Shown in pieces: positions 20,899 to 42,317 of a stretch of 64,000 nt of DNA (position 1 is the first letter of the stretch; every line of letters begins with the position of its first letter). The notes beneath the pieces were generated by a model. It ran no database searches. It saw only the letters and a list, made by a program, of their open reading frames with translations, and was not told where the DNA came from. Origin of the DNA: Actinopolyspora mzabensis (lineage in GTDB: Bacteria > Actinomycetota > Actinomycetes > Mycobacteriales > Pseudonocardiaceae); assembly GCF_900101095.1 (NCBI RefSeq), contig NZ_FNFM01000011.1:124001-188000 (forward strand). Direction: 5' to 3'. The translations under genes and the position numbers were made by a program.

Positions 20899-21875
20899 CC
20901 CGCCGCCTCCTGCTCCTCGTCACTCGACCACACGTCGCGGACGCACCGGAACCCGATGTTGCCGATGGACGAGTCAGGGGTGACTCCCTGACGCGCCGAA
21001 ACCCGGTAACGCCGACAGTAGGACTCGTGGCACAGGTAGGAACCGCCGCGCGCACTGCGACGTTCTCCCCGCTCGGGCCCCTTCGGGTTGAGCCGGGTGT
21101 CCCGCGCCGGGAAATCCGGGTCGAACCGGTCGGCACACCACTCCCACACGTTGCCGGTGGTGTTGTGCAGCCCGTAGCCGTTCGGCTCGAAGGCGTCCAC
21201 GGGGCAGGTTCCGTACCAACCGTCCGAGCACTCGTTGCGTCCGGGGAACTCACCCTGCCAGACGTTCATCCGGTGCCGTCCGGAAGGTTCCAGCTGTTCA
21301 CCCCACGGAAAGGGTTTTCCATCGAGCCCTCCCCTGGCCGCGTACTCCCACTCGGCCTCGGTCGGCAGCCGCAGCCCGGCCCAGTCGCAGTAGGCGAGCG
21401 CGTCCCGGAAGGAGACGTGGGTGACCGGGTGATCGGGGCGCTCCCCGGCATCGGATCCGGGCCCCTCCGGTCGCCACCAGTAGGCGCCCTCGACCTGGCG
21501 CCACCAGGGAGCGGCCGCGACTCCGCGCGTGGGCGGGAAGTCGTCCGGCAGCAGCCCGCCGAACACGAACGACCACCCCCACCGTTCGGCGTCGGTACGG
21601 TAGGCGGTGGCGTCCACGAAGGCCGCGAAGTCGGCCACCGACACGGCCGTCGGACTGATCCAGAAGGGGTCGAGCCGCACCATCCGCACCGGCCCCTCGC
21701 CGTCCTGCGGGTAAGCCTCGTCCCGCTCACTTCCCATTCGGAACTCGCCACCGTCGAGCCGCACCAGCCCCACGGTGGAGCCGGAGTGAGCCCGAGTACG
21801 TGCCGTCTCCGTCCGCGACGCCTCACCCGCGGGCCGGGTGGGTGCGCAGCAGTCTCCCGTAGTCGTGTCAGTCAT
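20868..21875 (-). CDS. formylglycine-generating enzyme (sulfatase-modifying factor)
   Basis: A 335-residue FGE-sulfatase-domain protein. It opens with VRLDGGEFRMGSERDEAYPQ at about residues 38-57, has FFISP-type strands and PVTHVSFRDALAYCDWAGLR, and ends in GGSYLCHESYCRRYRVSAR. The Cys-x4-Cys pair there (about residues 283 and 288) matches the copper-binding active-site cysteines of FGE. The enzyme oxidises the sulfatase Cys in C-x-P/S-x-R to formylglycine. ATG at 21875 overlaps the sulfatase stop by 8 nt, so enzyme and maturase are translationally linked; the sulfatase carries the matching CSPTR motif. Confidence 0.92.
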   Translation of the reverse strand: MTDTTTGDCCAPTRPAGEASRTETARTRAHSGSTVGLVRLDGGEFRMGSERDEAYPQDGEGPVRMVRLDPFWISPTAVSVADFAAFVDATAYRTDAERWGWSFVFGGLLPDDFPPTRGVAAAPWWRQVEGAYWWRPEGPGSDAGERPDHPVTHVSFRDALAYCDWAGLRLPTEAEWEYAARGGLDGKPFPWGEQLEPSGRHRMNVWQGEFPGRNECSDGWYGTCPVDAFEPNGYGLHNTTGNVWEWCADRFDPDFPARDTRLNPKGPERGERRSARGGSYLCHESYCRRYRVSARQGVTPDSSIGNIGFRCVRDVWSSDEEQEAAGWNAGSSSTS

Positions 21876-24231
21876 GGGCCGCCCTGAACAGTTCGCGGTC
21901 GCGCTCGCTGTCGCTGTCGCTGTGCAGATCGTCACCGAGATCCACCCGCACGCTGTGCAGCGTGCCCGTGTAGGCGTTGTCCACCGGCGGGTAGTCGTCG
22001 GTGACCGGTGACGCACGGTCGACTCCGATGTCGAACGTCTCGTCGAAGGCGAAATAGTACGGGATGGTGCCGCCCACCCGCTGCTGTCCGCGCTGCTCAC
22101 CGTCGACGTGGAGGGTCGCGATCCCGCCCATGCCGACACCGCCACCGTCATAGGCGAAGTCGAGCACGATCTCGTGCTCACCGGTGGGGAGCGGTTCGTC
22201 CGTGCTCACCCGGTAGAGCTCGAGTCCGAAGTAGTTGTACGCGTAGCAGGCGCGTCCCTGGTGTACGTACAGCGACCAGCCGCCGAACCGTCCGCCCTGG
22301 GCCACCAGCACCCCGTCCGCACCGGACTCGGGGACCTCGATACGCGCGGTCAGCGTGTGCGAGCGGTTCTTGACGTTGGGCGCCGTCTCCTCGGTCAACC
22401 GTGAGGCGGAGGCGTGGAAGGTGATCGACCGACGGTCGCCGTGCAGGTCGCGCCGTCCGGCCTCACGCGGGTTCTCCCGCTCGGTCATGCGGTCGTCGAG
22501 GGGGAACACGTTGTAACGGCTGGCCTCCACCAGGAACAGCTGTTGCAGCTCCCGGAGCTTGCCCGGGTGCTCCGCCGCGAGGTCGTGGGCCTGGCTCCAG
22601 TCCACATTCGTGTCGTAGAGCTCCCAGCGGTCGTCGTCGAAGTAGTGCCGGGTGCCGTCCTGGACCATGTCCCACGGGGTGCCGTGCCTGGTGACCGCCA
22701 TCCAACCGTCGTGGTAGATGCCCCGGTTGCCCACCATCTCGAAGTACTGGATCCGGCGGCGTTCCGCCGCTGAGGCGTCGTTGAAGCTGTAGAGCATGCT
22801 CGTGCCCTCCACCGGCTGCTGCGTGACCCCGTTCACCTCGTCGGGCTGCGGGATCCCGGCGGCTTCGAGGACGGTGGGCAGCACGTCGATGACGTGGTGG
22901 AACTGATCACGGATACCACCACGGTCGGCGATGCCGCGTGGCCAGTGCACGATCATGCCGTCCCTGGTTCCACCGAAGTGCGAGGCGACCTGTTTCGTCC
23001 ACTGGTAGGGCGTGTTCATCGCCAGGGCCCAGCCGACCGGATAGTGGGCGTGCGTGGTCGCGTCACCCAGTTCCTCCCGGTGGCGGTTGATCGTCTCGGC
23101 GTCGTCCGGGATACCGCTGGCGTGCCGGTGCTCGTTGAGCGTCCCGCCGAGTCCTCCCTCGGCGGAGGCGCCGTTGTCACCGAGGATGTAGACGAACAGG
23201 GTGTTGTCGAGTTCGCCCTGCTGCTCCAGCTCGTTGACGAGACGACCGATCTGGTCGTCGGTGTGCTCGGCGAATCCCGCGTAGAGCTCCATCAACGAGG
23301 CGGCGGACTCTTGCTCCTGTTCGGACAGTTCGTCCCAGTGCGGCACGCCCTCGGCCCAAGGGGCCAGTTCCGTTTCGGGGGGAACGACTCCCAGTTCCTT
23401 CTGCCGCTCCAGGGTGATCTCACGCTGCCGGTCCCAGCCGTGGTCGAACCTGCCCCGGTACTTGTCCCGGTACTCCTTCGGAACGTGGTAGGGCGCGTGG
23501 GTCGCGCCGAAGGGGAGGTAGGCGAAGAAGGGGGTTTCGGGCTTGAGCGACTTCTGGTCGCGCACCCAGTCGATCGCGCGGTCGACCAGGTCCTCGGAGA
23601 GGTGGTAACCGTCCTCCGGTCCGCGGTCGGGTTCCACCGGTGTGGTGCCGTCGAACAGCACGGGGTACCAGTGGTTCATCTCCGCGCACAGGAAGCCGTA
23701 GAACTTCTCGAAGCCCTCACCGGTGGGCCAACGGTCGAACGGACCCGCCACGCTGACGTCACGCGCCGGGGTCTGGTGCCACTTGCCGAACGCCGCCGTG
23801 TTGTAGCCGTTACCGGACAGGATCTGGCCCATCGTGCCCGCGCTCAGCGGCCGTATCCCGTTGTATCCCGGGGCGGCGCTGGCCATCTCGGTGGTGACGC
23901 CCATTCCCACCGAGTGGTGGTTACGGCCGGTCAGCAACGACTGCCGGGTCGGCGAGCACACCGCGGTCACGTGGAACCGCGTGTAGCGCAGTCCGCCCTC
24001 TGCCAACCGGTCGGCCGTGGGCATCTCGCACGGCCCACCGAAGGCGCTGGGGGCGCCGAAACCCATGTCGTCCAGCAGTACGACCACCACGTTGGGAGCC
24101 CCCTCGGGCGCGCTCGGCGGCTCCGGTGGGGAGAACTGCGGGTCCTGCTCGCGGATGTCCAGCGATGACGCGTGCTGCCGAGTTCCTCCCCGGATAGGGA
24201 GACTCGTCCGCGACATCTCCGGATCACTCAT
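21868..24231 (-). CDS. arylsulfatase, formylglycine-dependent, AtsD-like
   Basis: A 787-residue type I sulfatase. The metal-binding Asp pair is in VLLDDMGFGAPS (residues 52-63), the modified cysteine is Cys92 in CSPTRQSLLTG, and KWHQTP, FGATHAPYH and DNGASAEGG follow. The C-terminal third is a beta-rich extension with GGRFGGWSLYVHQGR. Length and architecture match large actinobacterial arylsulfatases such as mycobacterial AtsD. There is no signal peptide, so it is probably cytoplasmic, where its maturase (next gene) acts. AGGAGG precedes the ATG at 24231. It likely releases sulfate from organic sulfate esters; substrate unknown. Confidence 0.93.
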   Translation of the reverse strand: MSDPEMSRTSLPIRGGTRQHASSLDIREQDPQFSPPEPPSAPEGAPNVVVVLLDDMGFGAPSAFGGPCEMPTADRLAEGGLRYTRFHVTAVCSPTRQSLLTGRNHHSVGMGVTTEMASAAPGYNGIRPLSAGTMGQILSGNGYNTAAFGKWHQTPARDVSVAGPFDRWPTGEGFEKFYGFLCAEMNHWYPVLFDGTTPVEPDRGPEDGYHLSEDLVDRAIDWVRDQKSLKPETPFFAYLPFGATHAPYHVPKEYRDKYRGRFDHGWDRQREITLERQKELGVVPPETELAPWAEGVPHWDELSEQEQESAASLMELYAGFAEHTDDQIGRLVNELEQQGELDNTLFVYILGDNGASAEGGLGGTLNEHRHASGIPDDAETINRHREELGDATTHAHYPVGWALAMNTPYQWTKQVASHFGGTRDGMIVHWPRGIADRGGIRDQFHHVIDVLPTVLEAAGIPQPDEVNGVTQQPVEGTSMLYSFNDASAAERRRIQYFEMVGNRGIYHDGWMAVTRHGTPWDMVQDGTRHYFDDDRWELYDTNVDWSQAHDLAAEHPGKLRELQQLFLVEASRYNVFPLDDRMTERENPREAGRRDLHGDRRSITFHASASRLTEETAPNVKNRSHTLTARIEVPESGADGVLVAQGGRFGGWSLYVHQGRACYAYNYFGLELYRVSTDEPLPTGEHEIVLDFAYDGGGVGMGGIATLHVDGEQRGQQRVGGTIPYYFAFDETFDIGVDRASPVTDDYPPVDNAYTGTLHSVRVDLGDDLHSDSDSERDRELFRAAHD

Positions 24232-30288: not shown

Positions 30289-31269
30289 TCATCCCTGGTT
30301 CCGGGAACTCCGGGTCGCGATCAACCCCAGCACGGCGCGTTCCAGGGCGTAGTCGGCGTCGGCGGCCTGCCCCTTGACCTGACCGTTGAGCGAGGCGACC
30401 AGCTGCATCGCCTCGGCCACTCCCGCCGCGTTCCAGCCCCGCGCCTGCGAGAGCGCCTTCTTGACCTTCCAAGCCGGCATGCCGAGCTCCCGGGCGAGCC
30501 GGTACTGATCCCCGCCTCCGGCACTGGCCACTCGCCCGATGGTGCGCACGGCGTCGGCCAACGCATCGGCGATCAGCACGTGCGGCACCCCCAGCTGCAG
30601 CGCCCAGCGCAACGCCTCCAACGCGCCGGCGCGATCCCCCATCACGGCCTTCTCCGCCACCACGAAGCCGGTGACCTCGGCCTTGCCCTGGTGGTAACGC
30701 CGCACCGCCGCCTCGTCGACCTTGCCGTCGGTATCGGCCACCAGCTGGGACACCGAGGAGGACAGCTCGCGCAGATCGTTGCCGACGGTCTCCACGAGAG
30801 CGCTCACCGCGGCCGAGTCGATGCGCCCACCGGCCCTGGTGGCCTCCGCCCGGACGAAGCTCTCCCGCTCGGCTGGCCGCGTGATCCGGTTGCACTCGGT
30901 GACGGCGGCCCCCATACCGCGCAGCTCGCCGGGGAGTTCCTTGGCGTGCTTGGCCCTGCCACCGCCGTTGTGCAACACCACGAGCACCACGCCTTCGGCC
31001 GGGGCGCGCGCGTGGCGGAGCACCGCCTCGGCGATCTCCTTGCTCGCGTCCTGCGCACTGTCCAACGCGATCACGCGCCCCTCCGCGAACAACGAGGGAC
31101 TCAGCATCTCGTCGAGCTCGGGAGGGGTGAGGTCACTCACCTTGGAACGGCGTAGCTCGGCTTCGGGATCGGCCCGGCGGGCGGCGGCGAGGGATTCGGA
31201 AACAGCACGCTCGACCAGCAGTTCTTCGTCACCGAGCACGAGATGCAACGAGGCGGGAGCCGAGTTCAT
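30289..31269 (-). CDS. holA: DNA polymerase III delta subunit
   Basis: A 326-residue clamp-loader delta subunit. It has the N-terminal HLVLGDEELLVERAVSE, a middle AAA+-like region with SLFAEGRVIALDSAQD and VLVVLHNGGGRAK, and the C-terminal collar ending in KGQAADADYALERAVLG. It opens the sliding clamp for loading on DNA. ATG at 31269 or 31278 can serve as start (GGGAG lies just upstream of both). In many actinobacteria comEC directly precedes holA; here the thrC unit and repeat-rich spacers intervene. Confidence 0.93.
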   Translation of the reverse strand: MNSAPASLHLVLGDEELLVERAVSESLAAARRADPEAELRRSKVSDLTPPELDEMLSPSLFAEGRVIALDSAQDASKEIAEAVLRHARAPAEGVVLVVLHNGGGRAKHAKELPGELRGMGAAVTECNRITRPAERESFVRAEATRAGGRIDSAAVSALVETVGNDLRELSSSVSQLVADTDGKVDEAAVRRYHQGKAEVTGFVVAEKAVMGDRAGALEALRWALQLGVPHVLIADALADAVRTIGRVASAGGGDQYRLARELGMPAWKVKKALSQARGWNAAGVAEAMQLVASLNGQVKGQAADADYALERAVLGLIATRSSRNQG

Positions 31270-31377
31270 GGTCCGCATTCTCCCACTCGGGCCGACGGTC
31301 AACCCCGTCCCGGATGCTGGATCAAAGTGGTCGGATGACGGGTTCATGCCGTAGCGTTGCCGAAACAACTTGGATAG

Positions 31378-31504
31378 CTCATCCAGAGGGGCAGAGGGAC
31401 CGGCCCGGCGAAGCCCCGGCAACCAGCGTCGGCACCGCGACCACGTTCGTGGCGCGGTTCGGCGAAAACGGTGCCAATTCCGACCCGCCAGCGGGACAGA
31501 TGAG
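31378..31504 (+). ncRNA. SAM riboswitch (SAM-I / S-box type)
   Basis: The S-box core is easily read. P1 strands are CTCATC (31378-31383) and GATGAG (31499-31504). Between them lie AGAGGGGCAGAGGGACCGGC, the core AAGCCCCGGCAACC (31411-31424) and the pseudoknot/P3 stretch GGTGCCAATTCC (31470-31481). The ribosome binding site GGGGAAGGA follows P1 within a few bases, so control is probably at translation initiation, or partly through the adjacent CCCGC-CA-GCGGG stem. SAM binding normally turns such genes off. Confidence 0.93.
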
Positions 31505-31519
31505 GGGAAGGACCTCGCG

Positions 31520-32791
31520 ATGACAGCTGCCGCCCGAACACAGTCCGAGACGACCGACCGGAAGTTCGACCTCGGCCCCGCGGCCGAGCTCGTGTCCAAG
31601 GAAGAGGGGCATCGGCAACCCCTGGCTCCGGAGTTCGTCTGCCTGGAGGACTTCTCGCCGCTGGAAGTCGCCTACGACTTCGGCCGCGTGCGCAGGGAGG
31701 ACATCGAGTCCGGCCCGCGCTCGATCTGGCGCTACAAGAACCTGCTGCCTGTTCCGTCCGATGTGGAGCAGCATCCGAACACCGATCCGGGCTGTACGAG
31801 GTTGGTCCGGGCAGACGCACTCGCCAACGCGCTGGGCGTCAAACGCATCTGGATCAAGGACGACACGGGCAACCCCACCCACTCCTTCAAGGACCGGGTC
31901 GTGGCGGTGGCACTGGCCGCCGCGCGCGAGTTCGGCTTCAAGGTACTGGCATGCCCCTCCACCGGTAACCTCGCCAACGCGGTGGGAGCGGCCGCGGCAC
32001 GCGCGGGCTGGGACTCGGTGGTGCTCGTCCCCTCCTCGCTGGAACGCGCCAAGGTACTGATGACCGCCGTCTACGACGGCTCGCTGCTGGCCGTCGACGG
32101 CAACTACGACGACGTGAATCGCCTGGCCACCGAGCTGGCCGGAGAGCACGAGGACTGGGCGTTCGTCAACGTCAACGTGCGGCCCTACTACTCGGAGGGC
32201 TCCAAGACCCTCGCCTTCGAGGTGGCCGAACAGCTCGGCTGGCGCATTCCGGAGCAGGTGGTGGTTCCCATCGCGTCCGGCTCGCAGCTCACCAAGGTCG
32301 ACAAGGGATTCCGCGAGCTCGGCGAGGTCGGGCTGGTGGAACAGAGCCCCTACCGGATCTTCGGTGCGCAGGCCACGGGCTGCTCCCCCGTGGCAGACGC
32401 CTACAAGCAGAACCACGACGTGGTGCAGCCGGTGCGGCCCGACACCATCGCGCGTTCGCTGGCGATCGGCGCCCCCGCCGATGGTCCGTACGTACTCGAC
32501 ACCGTGCGCCGCACCAACGGAGCGATCGAGGACGTCAGCGACGAGGAAGTCGTCGAGGGCATCCGGCTGCTGGCTCGCACGGAGGGCATCTTCGCCGAGA
32601 CCGCGGGCGGGGTCACCGTGGCCACCACGAAGAAGCTGATCGAGTCCGGACAACTGGACCCGGACTCGGAGACGGTACTGATGATCACCGGCGACGGTCT
32701 CAAGACGATGGACTCGCTGCAGGATCACGTCGGGCCGAAGGCCACCGTGGCGCCGAACACCGAAGCAGTGGACGAGGCACTGAACCTCTGA
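31520..32791 (+). CDS. thrC: threonine synthase family PLP enzyme
   Basis: A 423-residue PLP enzyme of the threonine synthase family. The lysine motif is GNPTHSFKDRV at about residues 117-127 (Schiff-base Lys in SFKD), the phosphate cradle is STGNLANAVGAAAA, and the loops VIPIASGSQ-like VVVPIASGSQLTKVDKG and ITGDGLKTM follow. Threonine synthase converts O-phosphohomoserine to threonine. ATG at 31520 sits 7-15 nt after the ribosome binding site at the foot of a SAM riboswitch. That control links the gene to methionine/SAM levels and leaves open a role in sulfur amino acid synthesis. It is monocistronic, flanked by structured repeats. Confidence 0.88.
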   Translation: MTAAARTQSETTDRKFDLGPAAELVSKEEGHRQPLAPEFVCLEDFSPLEVAYDFGRVRREDIESGPRSIWRYKNLLPVPSDVEQHPNTDPGCTRLVRADALANALGVKRIWIKDDTGNPTHSFKDRVVAVALAAAREFGFKVLACPSTGNLANAVGAAAARAGWDSVVLVPSSLERAKVLMTAVYDGSLLAVDGNYDDVNRLATELAGEHEDWAFVNVNVRPYYSEGSKTLAFEVAEQLGWRIPEQVVVPIASGSQLTKVDKGFRELGEVGLVEQSPYRIFGAQATGCSPVADAYKQNHDVVQPVRPDTIARSLAIGAPADGPYVLDTVRRTNGAIEDVSDEEVVEGIRLLARTEGIFAETAGGVTVATTKKLIESGQLDPDSETVLMITGDGLKTMDSLQDHVGPKATVAPNTEAVDEALNL

Positions 32792-33198: not shown

Positions 33199-35580
33199 TC
33201 ACTCGTCGGGACGGAGCGGGTCGCCGGTGCTGGCGGTCAGCATGCCGCGGTTTCCGCCCAGCACGGCGATGGCGCCACGGCGATCGGTACGGCGCACCGC
33301 GGCGCCGAGGTCGCGCAGTGTCGTGACGATCTCGTCACTGGGATGTCCGTAGTCGTTGCCGTGTCCCACGCTGATCAGCGCCACCTCCGGGGAAACGGCC
33401 CGGAGGAACTCCTCGCTGGTGTACCTCGAACCGTGGTGCGGCACCTTGAGCACTTCCGCGTCCAGCCGAACCCCCGCCGCGAGGAGCTCCCGCTGCCCGG
33501 CCAGTTCGATGTCGCCGGTCAGCAGTACCCGCCCTGCCGGGGTGTTCGCCCGCAGCACCAGCGAGGCGTCGTTGACCCGGTCCGCCGCCACGGGCGCGGC
33601 GTCCCCGTCCGGGGCCAGCACCTCGATCGCCAGAGCGGGCCAGCGGATCAGTTGCCCCGCGGACAGCCGCACCAGGTGCGCGTCGTTGTCGCGCGCACGT
33701 CGTCGAACGTCGGTGTCCGACCAGATGGACGGACGAGCAGCTCCCGTCGCCACCGCATCGACCTCGCGTCCCACCAGCACTCCGGAGATCCCGGCGTAGT
33801 GATCGGCGTGCGGGTGGGTGAGCACCAGCAGCGGAACGTGGCGCACCCCGAGGCGGTCGAGACACCGATCGACCGGGGCGGCGCTGGGACCGGTGTCCAC
33901 CACGACAGCGGTGCCGCGCACTCCGGTGGCCAGCACCAGGCTGTCACCCTGGCCGACGTCGCAGGCCACGACACTCCAACCCGCCACAGGCCAACCACCG
34001 GGCCGCACTCCGATCGTGACCAGCAGCAGTAGCACGGACAACAGCGAACCGGCCAACAACATCCGGCCGGTACGGAACCGGAGCAGCAGCAGGATCGCGG
34101 CCACCAGGGCGACCACGAGCGGGATCCCCGGCGCCCCGGAAGGCAACGGGATCGTCGCCAGCGGTGAACTCGCGGCACACCGGGCAACCAGCAGCACCCA
34201 CTCCAATTCCGGAGCGGCCAGCAGCACCAGGAGTTCACCCAGCGGGGAGAACCAGGGGGCGAGCAACGTCGCGGCCACACCGAGCACCGTGGCCGGGGCG
34301 ATCACCGGTTCCACCAGCACGTTCGCTGCGACACCGACCAGGCTGAGCTCGCCGGACAGCGCGACCACGAGCGGCGCGGTGGCGAGTTGCGCGGCGGCCG
34401 GTGCCACCAGCGCCTGGGCCAGCCGGAGGGGCATCCCACGTCGCCGCAGCCACCCCGACCACGCCGGGGCGAGCAGCACCAGGGCGGCCGTGGCCGCGAC
34501 CGACAACGCGAACCCCGGACTGACGGCCAGCTCGGGGTGCCACAACAGCAGCAGGATCACACAGCCCGCGAGCGCGGGCAGTGCGGTTCCGTTACGGCCC
34601 AACACGAGCGCGAGCAACCCGAGCGCCCCCATGACGGCCGCACGGAGCACGCTCGGTTCGCCCCCGGCGAGAACCACGAATCCCGCCAACGCCGCCCCCG
34701 CACATCCCGCGGCCAGCGGCGGCGGAGCACGCATCGCACGGAGCAGCAGCAGTACGGCGCCGCAGACGATCGCCAGGTTCGCACCGGAAACCGCGGTCAG
34801 ATGGGTCAGCCCCGCCTTGCCGAAATCCCGGCGGACCGTGTCGAGCAACCCGCTGGTGTCGCCCACCACCAGACCGGGAAGCAGTCCTTCGGCGCGTGGG
34901 GAGAGCACGGACTCGGAGACATCGCGCAGTCCGGCACGCAGCCGCTCGGCGAACCGCTGGGCCACGGGGGGCCGAGTCACGTTCTCCGGCGGCTGGTGGA
35001 CCGCGAGAACGAGGACCAGCAGATCGGCTCCACGTGGACGGAGCGCCGCACCAGTGGTGGTGGCTCGCTGTCCCCGCAACAGTCCGCCCCAGGTTTCGGC
35101 GGGCACCAGCAACAGCACCGAACCGGAAGCCGGGTGCCACCGCTCCCGCTGTCTTACCGCTCGGATACGGGCTCGGACCACCGACCGCTTCCCGACCCCG
35201 CCTCCGCCGCCCGCCGAGGCGCCGCTCACTGGCGTGGGGCGTTCGGTGAGTTCGACGCGCAGCCGTACGCTCTCGCCGCGGGAGGCGACTTCCCGAAGCG
35301 GGTGGTTCTCGACGGGCCGCAATCGCACCGCCAGCCCGAAACCCGCGGTTCCCACCAGAACCGAGCACACGATCACCCCGATGGCCCATCTCCGCCCCGT
35401 GACGAACAGGCACGCAGCTGCCGCCAGGGCACCGCAGCACGCCAGCAGGGCGGCGGCGACCCAGCCGGTGTGCAGCCCGGCCAACGTGGCACCCCAGACT
35501 CCGAGCGCTGCAGGTACCAGCCGAAGGTCCAGCGGGCGAGGAGCCGACGCGGCAGTGGTCGACGCCGTGGGGCCGGTCAT
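33199..35580 (-). CDS. comEC: ComEC/Rec2 family DNA-uptake channel protein
   Basis: A 793-residue polytopic membrane protein. N-terminal hydrophobic helices and a DUF4131-like domain lead into the Competence domain at about residues 220-490 (GLTHLTAVSGANLAIVCGAV, LALVLGRNGTALPALAGC). The C-terminal metallo-beta-lactamase-like domain begins VVACDVGQGDSLVLATG and contains THPHADHYAG (HxHxDH). ComEC transports single-stranded DNA through the membrane; the lactamase domain is thought to degrade one strand. It starts 7 nt after comEA. Its 3' end faces thrC across structured repeats. Confidence 0.92.
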   Translation of the reverse strand: MTGPTASTTAASAPRPLDLRLVPAALGVWGATLAGLHTGWVAAALLACCGALAAAACLFVTGRRWAIGVIVCSVLVGTAGFGLAVRLRPVENHPLREVASRGESVRLRVELTERPTPVSGASAGGGGGVGKRSVVRARIRAVRQRERWHPASGSVLLLVPAETWGGLLRGQRATTTGAALRPRGADLLVLVLAVHQPPENVTRPPVAQRFAERLRAGLRDVSESVLSPRAEGLLPGLVVGDTSGLLDTVRRDFGKAGLTHLTAVSGANLAIVCGAVLLLLRAMRAPPPLAAGCAGAALAGFVVLAGGEPSVLRAAVMGALGLLALVLGRNGTALPALAGCVILLLLWHPELAVSPGFALSVAATAALVLLAPAWSGWLRRRGMPLRLAQALVAPAAAQLATAPLVVALSGELSLVGVAANVLVEPVIAPATVLGVAATLLAPWFSPLGELLVLLAAPELEWVLLVARCAASSPLATIPLPSGAPGIPLVVALVAAILLLLRFRTGRMLLAGSLLSVLLLLVTIGVRPGGWPVAGWSVVACDVGQGDSLVLATGVRGTAVVVDTGPSAAPVDRCLDRLGVRHVPLLVLTHPHADHYAGISGVLVGREVDAVATGAARPSIWSDTDVRRRARDNDAHLVRLSAGQLIRWPALAIEVLAPDGDAAPVAADRVNDASLVLRANTPAGRVLLTGDIELAGQRELLAAGVRLDAEVLKVPHHGSRYTSEEFLRAVSPEVALISVGHGNDYGHPSDEIVTTLRDLGAAVRRTDRRGAIAVLGGNRGMLTASTGDPLRPDE

Positions 35581-35587
35581 CGGCGCC

Positions 35588-36436
35588 TCACACCCGAACC
35601 AGATCGCGCAGCCGCGAGAGCCGCACCGTCCCGATCCCGTCGACCTCGCGAAGCTGGGTCACCGACTCGAATCCCTCGTTCTCGGCACGCCAGCGCAGGA
35701 TCGCTGCTGCCGTGACCGGACCGATGCCGGGCAGTTCCCGCAACTGTTGTTCATCGGCCCGATTGAGATCCACCTTCGAGGACTCGGTGGCGGTGGTGCC
35801 TTCCGGTGCCGACCTCGAGGCACGTGACGGCACCGGGATCCCGACGTAGAGCTGTTCCCCGTCGGACAGTTCCCGAGCCAGGTTCAACGCCAGGGTGTCC
35901 GTCTCGGGTAACGGACCTCCCGCCGCTCGCAGCGCGTCGGCGACACGGGACCCCGCCGCCACGGTCACCAGTCCCGGCTCGTGCACTCGTCCCACTACGC
36001 TGACCACCAGCTCGGTTTCAGGGGAGGTGGTGACGGCCGCACCGGTCACCGCTGCCGACTCCGGAGCGGGAATCCGAGTCGAGGGAACAGGTGTGGTCCC
36101 ACCACCGGAATCACGGCTCAGCAGCAGGACGCCGCAGCCGATCACCGCGGCGAGAACGACGCCGATGCACCCCACCCGGCCCGGATCCAGCAGCACCTCG
36201 CGCGGTGTTCGGGGCAACCACCGCCGCGCCCGGTCCCCGGTTTCCGTCCTCTCGTGGATTTCCGTCGCCTCGGCGGAATCCGCGGTATCGGCCGCGGAGA
36301 CCGTTTCGGTCGTACCGTCCTCGGAACCCATCAACTGCCGCAGCCGTCGACGCGCCGGGGGAAGCTCGTCGTTGGCCGCGGCGACGATCCGTTCGTCCGA
36401 AGGGGACGAGTCCTCGGGCCGGAAGAGATCGGGCAT
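35588..36436 (-). CDS. comEA: ComEA family DNA-binding protein
   Basis: A 282-residue membrane-anchored protein. A cytoplasmic N-terminal part of about 100 residues is followed by one transmembrane helix (GCIGVVLAAVIGCGVLLL) and a Thr/Pro-rich linker. Next comes an SLBB-like domain (VSVVGRVHEPGLVTVAAGSR) and a C-terminal double helix-hairpin-helix domain (VDLNRADEQQLRELPGIGPV and VDGIGTVRLSRLRDLV). ComEA binds incoming double-stranded DNA outside the membrane for ComEC. ATG at 36436 gives natural composition; upstream frame is low quality. Confidence 0.9.
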   Translation of the reverse strand: MPDLFRPEDSSPSDERIVAAANDELPPARRRLRQLMGSEDGTTETVSAADTADSAEATEIHERTETGDRARRWLPRTPREVLLDPGRVGCIGVVLAAVIGCGVLLLSRDSGGGTTPVPSTRIPAPESAAVTGAAVTTSPETELVVSVVGRVHEPGLVTVAAGSRVADALRAAGGPLPETDTLALNLARELSDGEQLYVGIPVPSRASRSAPEGTTATESSKVDLNRADEQQLRELPGIGPVTAAAILRWRAENEGFESVTQLREVDGIGTVRLSRLRDLVRV

Positions 36437-36715
36437 ACCGGCGAAGCTAACCGGCGGCGCACCGGCCGGGAACACCGAAGAACGCCTCCGGTGGACAGCC
36501 GAGTACGTTGTGGACACGTACGCGGCGAGCCGCACGATACGAGGCGGAGCCGAGTGCCGCGCGGCGAAGTGGCGAACCGGAACGCGCCGCAGGGCGCCGC
36601 GCCCGGATCACTGCCCGGATCACTGTCGGGATCGCTGCCCAGTCACGCGGTCGAGTTCCGCCGAACGAGCGCCTCGACGCCCCGACGCCCCGACGACCCG
36701 AGCGGAGAATCCCGA

Positions 36716-41073: not shown

Positions 41074-42273
41074 TCACCAGGTCACCGGGAGATCCCTCGG
41101 TCCGCGCACCAGCATCCCGGTCTTCCAGGAGACATCCGGTTCCTCCACGGCGAGCCGCAGATTCTCGAAGTCCCGCAGCAACGTGCCCAGCGCCACCTGC
41201 AGTTCCATCCGCGCCAGCTGCGCTCCGAGACAGTGGTGCGGCCCGTGCCCGAAGCCGATGTGGGAGTTGGAGTCACGTCGCAGATCGAGCCGGTCGGCCT
41301 CTTCGAAGACGGACTCGTCGCGGTTGGCCGAAGCGAGACTGGCCAGGACCGGCTCACCCGCACGGATCAGCACCCCGCCGAGCTCGACGTCCTCCAGGGC
41401 GTAACGCGGAAAAGCCGCGTTGACTCCCAACGGGACGAACCGCATGAGTTCCTCGACGGCGGCGGGGATCCGGTCCGGATCGGCACGCAGCCACTCGAGC
41501 TCCTCGGGATGCGTCAACAGCACGTAGACGAAGTTGGGGATCTGGGTGGCCGTGGTCTCGTGACCGGCCACGAGCAACCCCACCGAGAGGTCCAGCAGTT
41601 CGGTCTCGGAGAGCTTGTCCTGTTCGTCCCTCGCCTGGATCAGCGCGCTGAGCAGATCGTCGGCGGGACGCTCCCGCCGCTGCTCGACCAACCCGGCCAT
41701 GTAGGCGCGCATCTGTCCGATGTAGTCGTTGACCTGCTGCTCGGACAGCTTGCTCGTGGACAGGAAGGCGTCCGACCAGACCCGGAAGTCGGTCCTGTCC
41801 TCGTAGGGAACACCGAGCAACTCGCAGATCACGGTGATCGGCAGCGGCAACGCGAACTCCTCGACCAGATCCAGCGGGGGCCCGCTGCGCCGCATGGCCC
41901 GGCTCAGGTCGTCGGCGATCCGCTGCGCGCGTGGCCGCAGCTGCTCGACCCTGCGAGCGGTGAACGCCTTGGCCACCAGCTTGCGCAACCTGGTGTGCTC
42001 CGGTGGGTCCATCGTCAGGATGCCGGTCTGCTGCGGGTTCGGGCGTGCGCGTGGCTCGTCCTTGCCCACCGTGGCCGCGCGACTGAAACGCGGATCAGCG
42101 AAGACTGTTCGCACATCGGAGTGTCTGGTGGCCAACCATGCCGCCTCGCCGTAGGGAAGCTGCACCCGCGACACCGGTTCCTGCTTGCGCAGCTCCGCGT
42201 AGAACGGATCCAGCCGCAGCCTGTCGGGCGCGCTGAACGGATAGGTTCGCGGCGTCGGGTCGACGGTGGTCAT
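41074..42273 (-). CDS. cytochrome P450
   Basis: A 399-residue bacterial class I P450. The I-helix oxygen-binding motif is LLVAGHETTATQ at about residues 235-246, the K-helix ExxR is in AVEELMRF, and the heme-binding loop is FGHGPHHCLGAQLARMEL with the axial Cys at about residue 347. ATG at 42273 with GGGAGCC upstream; an earlier TTG at 42300 falls in the operator palindrome. A ferredoxin follows and a TetR regulator gene precedes it; the palindrome at 42300-42317 suggests repression by that regulator. Substrate unknown; similarity in style to CYP105/107-type enzymes only. Confidence 0.93.
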   Translation of the reverse strand: MTTVDPTPRTYPFSAPDRLRLDPFYAELRKQEPVSRVQLPYGEAAWLATRHSDVRTVFADPRFSRAATVGKDEPRARPNPQQTGILTMDPPEHTRLRKLVAKAFTARRVEQLRPRAQRIADDLSRAMRRSGPPLDLVEEFALPLPITVICELLGVPYEDRTDFRVWSDAFLSTSKLSEQQVNDYIGQMRAYMAGLVEQRRERPADDLLSALIQARDEQDKLSETELLDLSVGLLVAGHETTATQIPNFVYVLLTHPEELEWLRADPDRIPAAVEELMRFVPLGVNAAFPRYALEDVELGGVLIRAGEPVLASLASANRDESVFEEADRLDLRRDSNSHIGFGHGPHHCLGAQLARMELQVALGTLLRDFENLRLAVEEPDVSWKTGMLVRGPRDLPVTW

Positions 42274-42299
42274 GCTCGGCTCCCGGACACGAGACGACA

Positions 42300-42317
42300 A
42301 GTAAGCAACTGCTTACT
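42300..42317. promoter_or_regulatory. TetR-type operator palindrome
   Basis: AGTAAGCA-AC-TGCTTACT: perfect 8-bp arms with a 2-nt centre, 27 bp upstream of the P450 start and 99 bp downstream of the tetR stop. Length and symmetry are typical of TetR operators. The adjacent regulator gene is the natural candidate. Confidence 0.7.

Follow-up and report, generated by a model that had tools for sequence, protein, structure and literature searches.

The locus and its leader

The window, meaning here the whole 64-kb stretch of DNA that was analysed (C7:124001-188000 of G000), comes from an Actinopolyspora genome of 5.0 Mb, assembled in 24 contigs and 99.64% complete. On its forward strand, a SAM-I (S-box) riboswitch aptamer (31376..31506) precedes the gene of a MetM-like PLP enzyme of the ThrC family (31520..32791, 423 aa), which matches PF00291 and TIGR00260 and falls in the MetM clade of a quick tree. 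The ATG at 31520 that opens this switched gene lies 13 nt past the end of the aptamer. By the switched protein, the nearest named relatives are Actinopolyspora righensis and A. alba, each 99% identical. Elsewhere in the window, on the reverse strand, a 787-aa ORF (21868-24231) was tentatively assigned by eye to the sulfatases (motif CSPTR), two ORFs (33199-36535) to ComEC- and ComEA-like DNA-uptake proteins and a 408-aa ORF (41074-42300) to the cytochromes P450.

The aptamer was detected by cmscan with 70.5 bits (E 1.9e-14) against a gathering cut-off of 44.4, in an untruncated match that spans positions 1-108 of the 108 of the model; RF00162 is the sole Rfam 15 family above its gathering score in the whole 64-kb window. 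Sequence and P1-P4 structure together place the element in RF00162 above the curated score, and SAM binding is predicted. In SAM-I aptamers, the P2 loop also forms a pseudoknot with J3/4, which covariance models do not score. As read from the sequence and the cmscan structure line, the P1 helix pairs CTCATC (31378..31383) with GATGAG (31499..31504), both on the forward strand, and is followed on the same strand by the Shine-Dalgarno sequence AAGGA (31508..31512), 3 nt past P1 and 7 nt ahead of the ATG. AAGGA is the best Shine-Dalgarno outside P1, while an alternative candidate, GAGGGG, overlaps P1. The initial annotation had placed an S-box aptamer ahead of a thrC-family gene, with P1 abutting the ribosome binding site; place, strand and kind are all borne out by cmscan and the sequence.

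Folding suggests that the last bases of the 3′ strand of P1 could alternatively serve as the 5′ arm of a small hairpin. This possible RNAfold structure, TGAGG-(7 nt)-CCTCG (31501..31517, forward strand), holds the Shine-Dalgarno in its loop and is mutually exclusive with P1; the stretch 31499-31522 folds at -6.1 kcal/mol, with a z of -1.97 against 200 mononucleotide shuffles. A terminator-like hairpin was looked for in 31250-31560 and none was found, hence transcription attenuation at the switched gene was rejected. The leader is thus like other RF00162 elements in its full-length match and unlike them in that P1 abuts the Shine-Dalgarno and no terminator was found, so that a translational platform is most likely. 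The S-box core lies upstream in all 80 named homologue loci, which argues that the pairing of aptamer and gene is not due to chance. These 80 loci, the best-ranked among 581 confirmed, belong by their titles mainly to Actinopolyspora and to genera of the Pseudonocardiaceae.

The switched protein and the routes to homocysteine

The switched protein matches PF00291 with an E of 3.3e-67 and the thrC model TIGR00260 with 276.3 bits, above the cut-off of 167.1, which gives it the NCBIfam name threonine synthase; it reaches 70.3 bits with the cysteate synthase model TIGR03844, below the cut-off of 324.9. Besides the TIGR00260 score, it has in common with ThrC the fold family and the presumed PLP lysine, Lys124 (codon 31889..31891, forward strand; motif NPTHSFKDR), which aligns with the ThrC lysine residue 61 of 1uim, taken here to be the PLP lysine. 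It is unlike ThrC in its separate clade, in its changed residues and in being encoded outside the hom-thrC-thrB cluster. A quick maximum-likelihood tree built from 98 proteins separates 67 MetM-type proteins, the window protein among them, with an SH-aLRT of 100 from 30 ordinary ThrC proteins and a divergent protein encoded on contig C15, and the switched protein is placed as a ThrC paralogue in a clade of its own kind. At 38 alignment columns, the 67 MetM and the 30 ThrC proteins each show one residue in at least 93%, which differs between the groups. Residues T91, S158, R163 and N191 of the genome's own ThrC are invariant in 30/30 ThrC proteins; the corresponding residues of 67/67 MetM proteins are L, N, Y and S. 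The window protein, in which L151, N219, Y224 and S253 align with Thermus T88, S155, R160 and N188 (1uim alignment), does not carry these residues fixed in ordinary ThrC. The four Thermus residues presumably bind phosphate; a literature search on this role in ThrC gave no confirmation.

A TIGR00260 search of the genome revealed two places above the cut-off, namely the switched gene (277 bits) and C18:161099 (286.3 bits), as well as C15:407013 (113.1 bits) and five weak matches below it. The C18 gene is an ordinary thrC located between the genes of homoserine dehydrogenase (hom) and homoserine kinase (thrB), both over their model cut-offs. The initial annotation had considered that another thrC might exist in the genome, and had held that its reading would fail if the switched gene were the sole threonine synthase, with ordinary activity and an aptamer that does not bind SAM; the C18 gene bears out the first point and removes the sole-synthase premise of the second, as threonine need not rely on the switched gene. 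A close ThrC match (E<=1e-60) was present in 40/40 class genomes searched, with 61-71% identity outside the own genome. The apparent paradox of SAM shutting off a thrC is therefore removed, since the genome has a second, ordinary thrC, while the product of the switched gene falls in a MetM-like clade of its own. The C15 protein (C15:407013-407978; L016:6777-8003) is a third, divergent ThrC-like protein with CxxC motifs of its own.

An excerpt of PMC12172450, citing Hasebe et al. 2024 (AEM 90:e01247-24), describes MetM as a Streptomyces homocysteine synthase that also has cyanobacterial homologues. The same excerpt gives the metM gene of S. albulus an upstream SAM riboswitch, unlike the Microcystis gene, the product of which is a threonine synthase and deaminase that does not seem to fill the MetM role completely in cells. 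The upstream SAM riboswitch stated for S. albulus metM is also found at the window gene. In addition, PMC4365011 states that none of metE, metH and metK has a SAM riboswitch in streptomycetes, so that metM could be the step under this control.

Other routes to homocysteine were searched for in the genome. No MetX (TIGR01392) match reached E<=0.001, in a search that matched 9 of 14 control genomes, in none of them above the curated cut-off. Neither MetA (PF04204) nor HcyBio (PF01837) was matched in the genome, with searches that matched in 8 and 3 controls, respectively; the missing PF01837 match led to the rejection of a homocysteine route from aspartate semialdehyde. As no acyl-homoserine maker was found, O-phosphohomoserine is the obvious donor left. 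It is quite improbable that homocysteine is formed from it by a plant-like cystathionine gamma-synthase, leaving the switched gene with another job, e.g., threonine deamination. Three PLP genes of Cys/Met metabolism are prominent in the genome: a homologue of the PRK07811 cystathionine gamma-synthase (664 bits, above the cut-off of 513), a gene nearest methionine gamma-lyase (under its cut-off) and a cystathionine gamma-lyase (over its cut-off). The first of these speaks for such a route, but neither of the two S-box matches of the genome lies at this gene, and the cystathionine gamma-lyase is present too. Moreover, PRK07811-type genes in this group presumably serve reverse transsulfuration, which was counted against this route. 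The only two S-box matches are found at metM and ahead of metNIQ-like genes. The second, a SAM-I riboswitch of 61.4 bits (C15:201365-201454; L015:5366-5455), precedes MetN-, MetI- and MetQ-like genes, so called after the NCBIfam models that they match best, although none reaches its cut-off. Between this aptamer and the metN-like start lie 217 nt, in which no terminator-like site was found.

Distribution and direction of the switch

In a sample of 246 genomes of the class, metM was present in 162, presence being defined by a match to the window protein at E<1e-100 and five weaker matches being counted as absent. An RF00162 match (E<=0.001) was found in 162/162 metM genomes vs 8/84 others. Among the matches listed, 140 genomes offer a place for both metM and the riboswitch, and in 140/140 the two are adjacent and on the same strand, with a coordinate difference of 14-104 from the aptamer end to the start of the protein match; ten listed metM places come without a listed riboswitch place and ten vice versa. 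MetX, scored by E<1e-60 because the curated 500 bits were reached by no genome, was absent in 88/162 metM genomes vs 5/84 others (Fisher 2e-15, in statistics that ignore kinship). Here, eight intermediate MetX scores are treated as absences; treating them as presences would bring the figures to 81/162 vs 4/84. Consequently, MetX occurs alongside metM in 74/162 metM genomes.

These data also bear on whether the switched gene is an ordinary second threonine synthase, in which case its shut-off by SAM would be regulatory cross-talk. The TIGR00260 score above the cut-off and the threonine synthase activity reported for the Microcystis homologue in the excerpt of PMC12172450 speak for such an enzyme, but a close ordinary ThrC was present in every one of the 40 class genomes searched, the four residues constant in ThrC are replaced throughout the 67 MetM proteins, and MetX is missing mostly where the switched gene is present, which makes a second threonine synthase quite unlikely. 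The initial suggestion that the enzyme serves methionine or homocysteine formation is strengthened instead: judged from sequence comparison, the separate clade, the distribution and the genomic context would fit a conversion of O-phosphohomoserine into homocysteine.

The direction of the switch was modelled on 55 distinct leaders, many of them close kin, with 10-20 nt between the 3′ strand of P1 and the chosen start codon and with a Shine-Dalgarno that either overlaps P1 or comes shortly after it. With P1 formed, modelled ribosome binding was weaker by >0.5 kcal/mol in 50/55 leaders, about equal in 5/55 and stronger in 0/55, in a model biased toward OFF since it denies the ribosome access to the P1 bases by design; owing to these closed bases, 11 of the 50 weakened leaders were left without any site. 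The modelled change is small in the leader of the window itself (-3.1 kcal/mol with P1 formed vs -3.9).

The initial annotation had also allowed for an ON switch, in which the P1 formed by SAM would break the small hairpin that hides the Shine-Dalgarno. On average, the stretch after P1 indeed forms more stable folds than its mononucleotide shuffles (mean z of -1.43 over the 55 leaders, with z <=-1 in 36/55), and the AAGGA of the window lies in the hairpin loop. However, z is zero or positive in 9/55 leaders, the folds are not all one common hairpin, the only good Shine-Dalgarno of some families (GAGGAG) overlaps P1 by three bases, and the model, with its bias, strengthened ribosome binding in no leader, leaving the ON direction unsupported and very improbable. 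The hairpin after P1 in the window could represent the SAM-free alternative state or, if the switch were ON, the blocking state. SAM-I switches usually act as OFF switches, and the OFF direction is favoured because it fits both this behaviour and the pathway. Hence, the riboswitch is most likely a translational OFF switch in which P1 touches the Shine-Dalgarno.

Taken together, the locus very probably encodes a MetM-type homocysteine synthase under a translational SAM-I OFF switch, with threonine made by the separate, ordinary ThrC. We infer that the switched protein converts O-phosphohomoserine and sulfur into homocysteine and is turned off by SAM. In the proposed mechanism, this PLP enzyme descended from ThrC would draw O-phosphohomoserine from the threonine pathway and exchange its phosphate for sulfur, the resulting homocysteine leading to methionine and SAM. 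Bound SAM would stabilise P1, the 3′ strand of which overlaps or abuts the Shine-Dalgarno, and the formed P1 would exclude the ribosome and halt MetM synthesis at high SAM. The threonine synthase and deaminase activity of the Microcystis homologue, as given in the excerpt of PMC12172450, counts against a confident transfer of the MetM function. Further points against the MetM reading are the retention of MetX in 74 of the 162 metM genomes, the missing metO and the TIGR00260 score above the cut-off.

The missing metO and the sulfur carrier

MetM reportedly uses O-phosphohomoserine together with the thiocarboxylate of the carrier MetO. In many members of the class, metM is directly followed by metO, a CysO-like gene the ~90-aa product of which ends in SVIPAVAGG or a similar sequence. 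No metO was detected at the window locus, in the family relative G227 or, by tblastn with MetO and CysO (E<1e-4), at any of the 80 named homologue loci kept from the 581 confirmed. It is also missing in several other families, and the solo cases are scattered over several places in the quick tree. Among 162 loci with a metM match, which are loci and not genomes, so that the window and some other genomes are counted more than once, tblastn found metO in 57 and none in 102, 3 being too short. The window gene is thus like the MetM/MetO system of Streptomyces in encoding a ThrC-family enzyme behind a SAM riboswitch, and its product is ~58-76% identical to the class relatives listed, many of which have an adjoining metO; it is unlike that system in having no adjoining metO and in the loss of a CxxC..CxxC motif. 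As no dedicated MetO is encoded beside it, it was filed as a MetM-like enzyme and not as a MetM/MetO system.

The genome encodes three ThiS-family proteins, all on contigs other than that of metM; from their sequences, one is read as probably CysO-like and the other two as ThiS and MoaD. The CysO-like protein is 51.6% identical to a MetO, and its gene adjoins cysteine-synthase and JAMM-like genes. Within the class sample, a CysO-type carrier match (E<=1e-8) was found in 162/162 metM genomes vs 35/84 others. Of the 30 metM loci with the highest scores (L136-L165, among them that of the window), the 20 with metO come from genomes that all hold two carriers, while 9 of the 10 genomes of the loci without metO hold one. 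An enlarged set, which includes stretches picked after the carrier counts were seen, comprises 28 metO genomes, all with at least two carriers, and 19 solo genomes, of which 17 have one and 2 have two; MetX is lacking in 9 of these 19. In solo genomes, the CysO-type protein is present away from metM and is mostly the only carrier.

Of the MetMs scored, 28/28 metO-linked and 39/98 solo proteins retain the N-terminal CxxC..CxxC motif; L177, a further solo MetM, also carries the motif but fell outside the scoring pattern. The 59 solo MetMs that lost the motif are the window protein and those of 58 named loci from the set of 80. Its place is taken by SKEEG..EDFS or similar in Actinopolyspora, Saccharopolyspora, Amycolatopsis and others (L026-L105 and the window), and the motif is kept at the Lentzea and Saccharothrix loci. 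Its loss was observed only at loci lacking metO, as though the motif served the carrier, a pattern that reflects few evolutionary events.

In the CysO/CysM/Mec pathway, O-phosphoserine is converted into cysteine. The carrier proposed here for MetM is the CysO-like protein of the genome, as in that pathway, with the difference that it would be common to MetM as well. We infer that sulfur is donated either by the CysO-like protein, as its thiocarboxylate, or by sulfide. It is plausible, if short of probable, that in Pseudonocardiaceae, Actinopolyspora and some other actinomycete families one CysO feeds both CysM (with O-phosphoserine) and MetM (with O-phosphohomoserine). The dedicated MetO would have been lost, the MetM of one lineage would then have shed its CxxC..CxxC motif, and the SAM riboswitch would set the share of CysO sulfur that goes to methionine. 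In a partial literature collection, no title on CysO as a carrier for methionine synthesis was found.

The system is known in kind, as MetM behind a SAM riboswitch, and is found here in a variant without the carrier partner metO. Actinomycete "thrC" genes located behind a SAM riboswitch are most likely misnamed, and in genomes without MetX such SAM-switched genes seem to form the branch point to methionine. Many actinomycetes are producers of natural products, with a heavy demand for SAM. The MetO-less variant poses a direct question, namely whether one carrier serves both sulfur amino acids.
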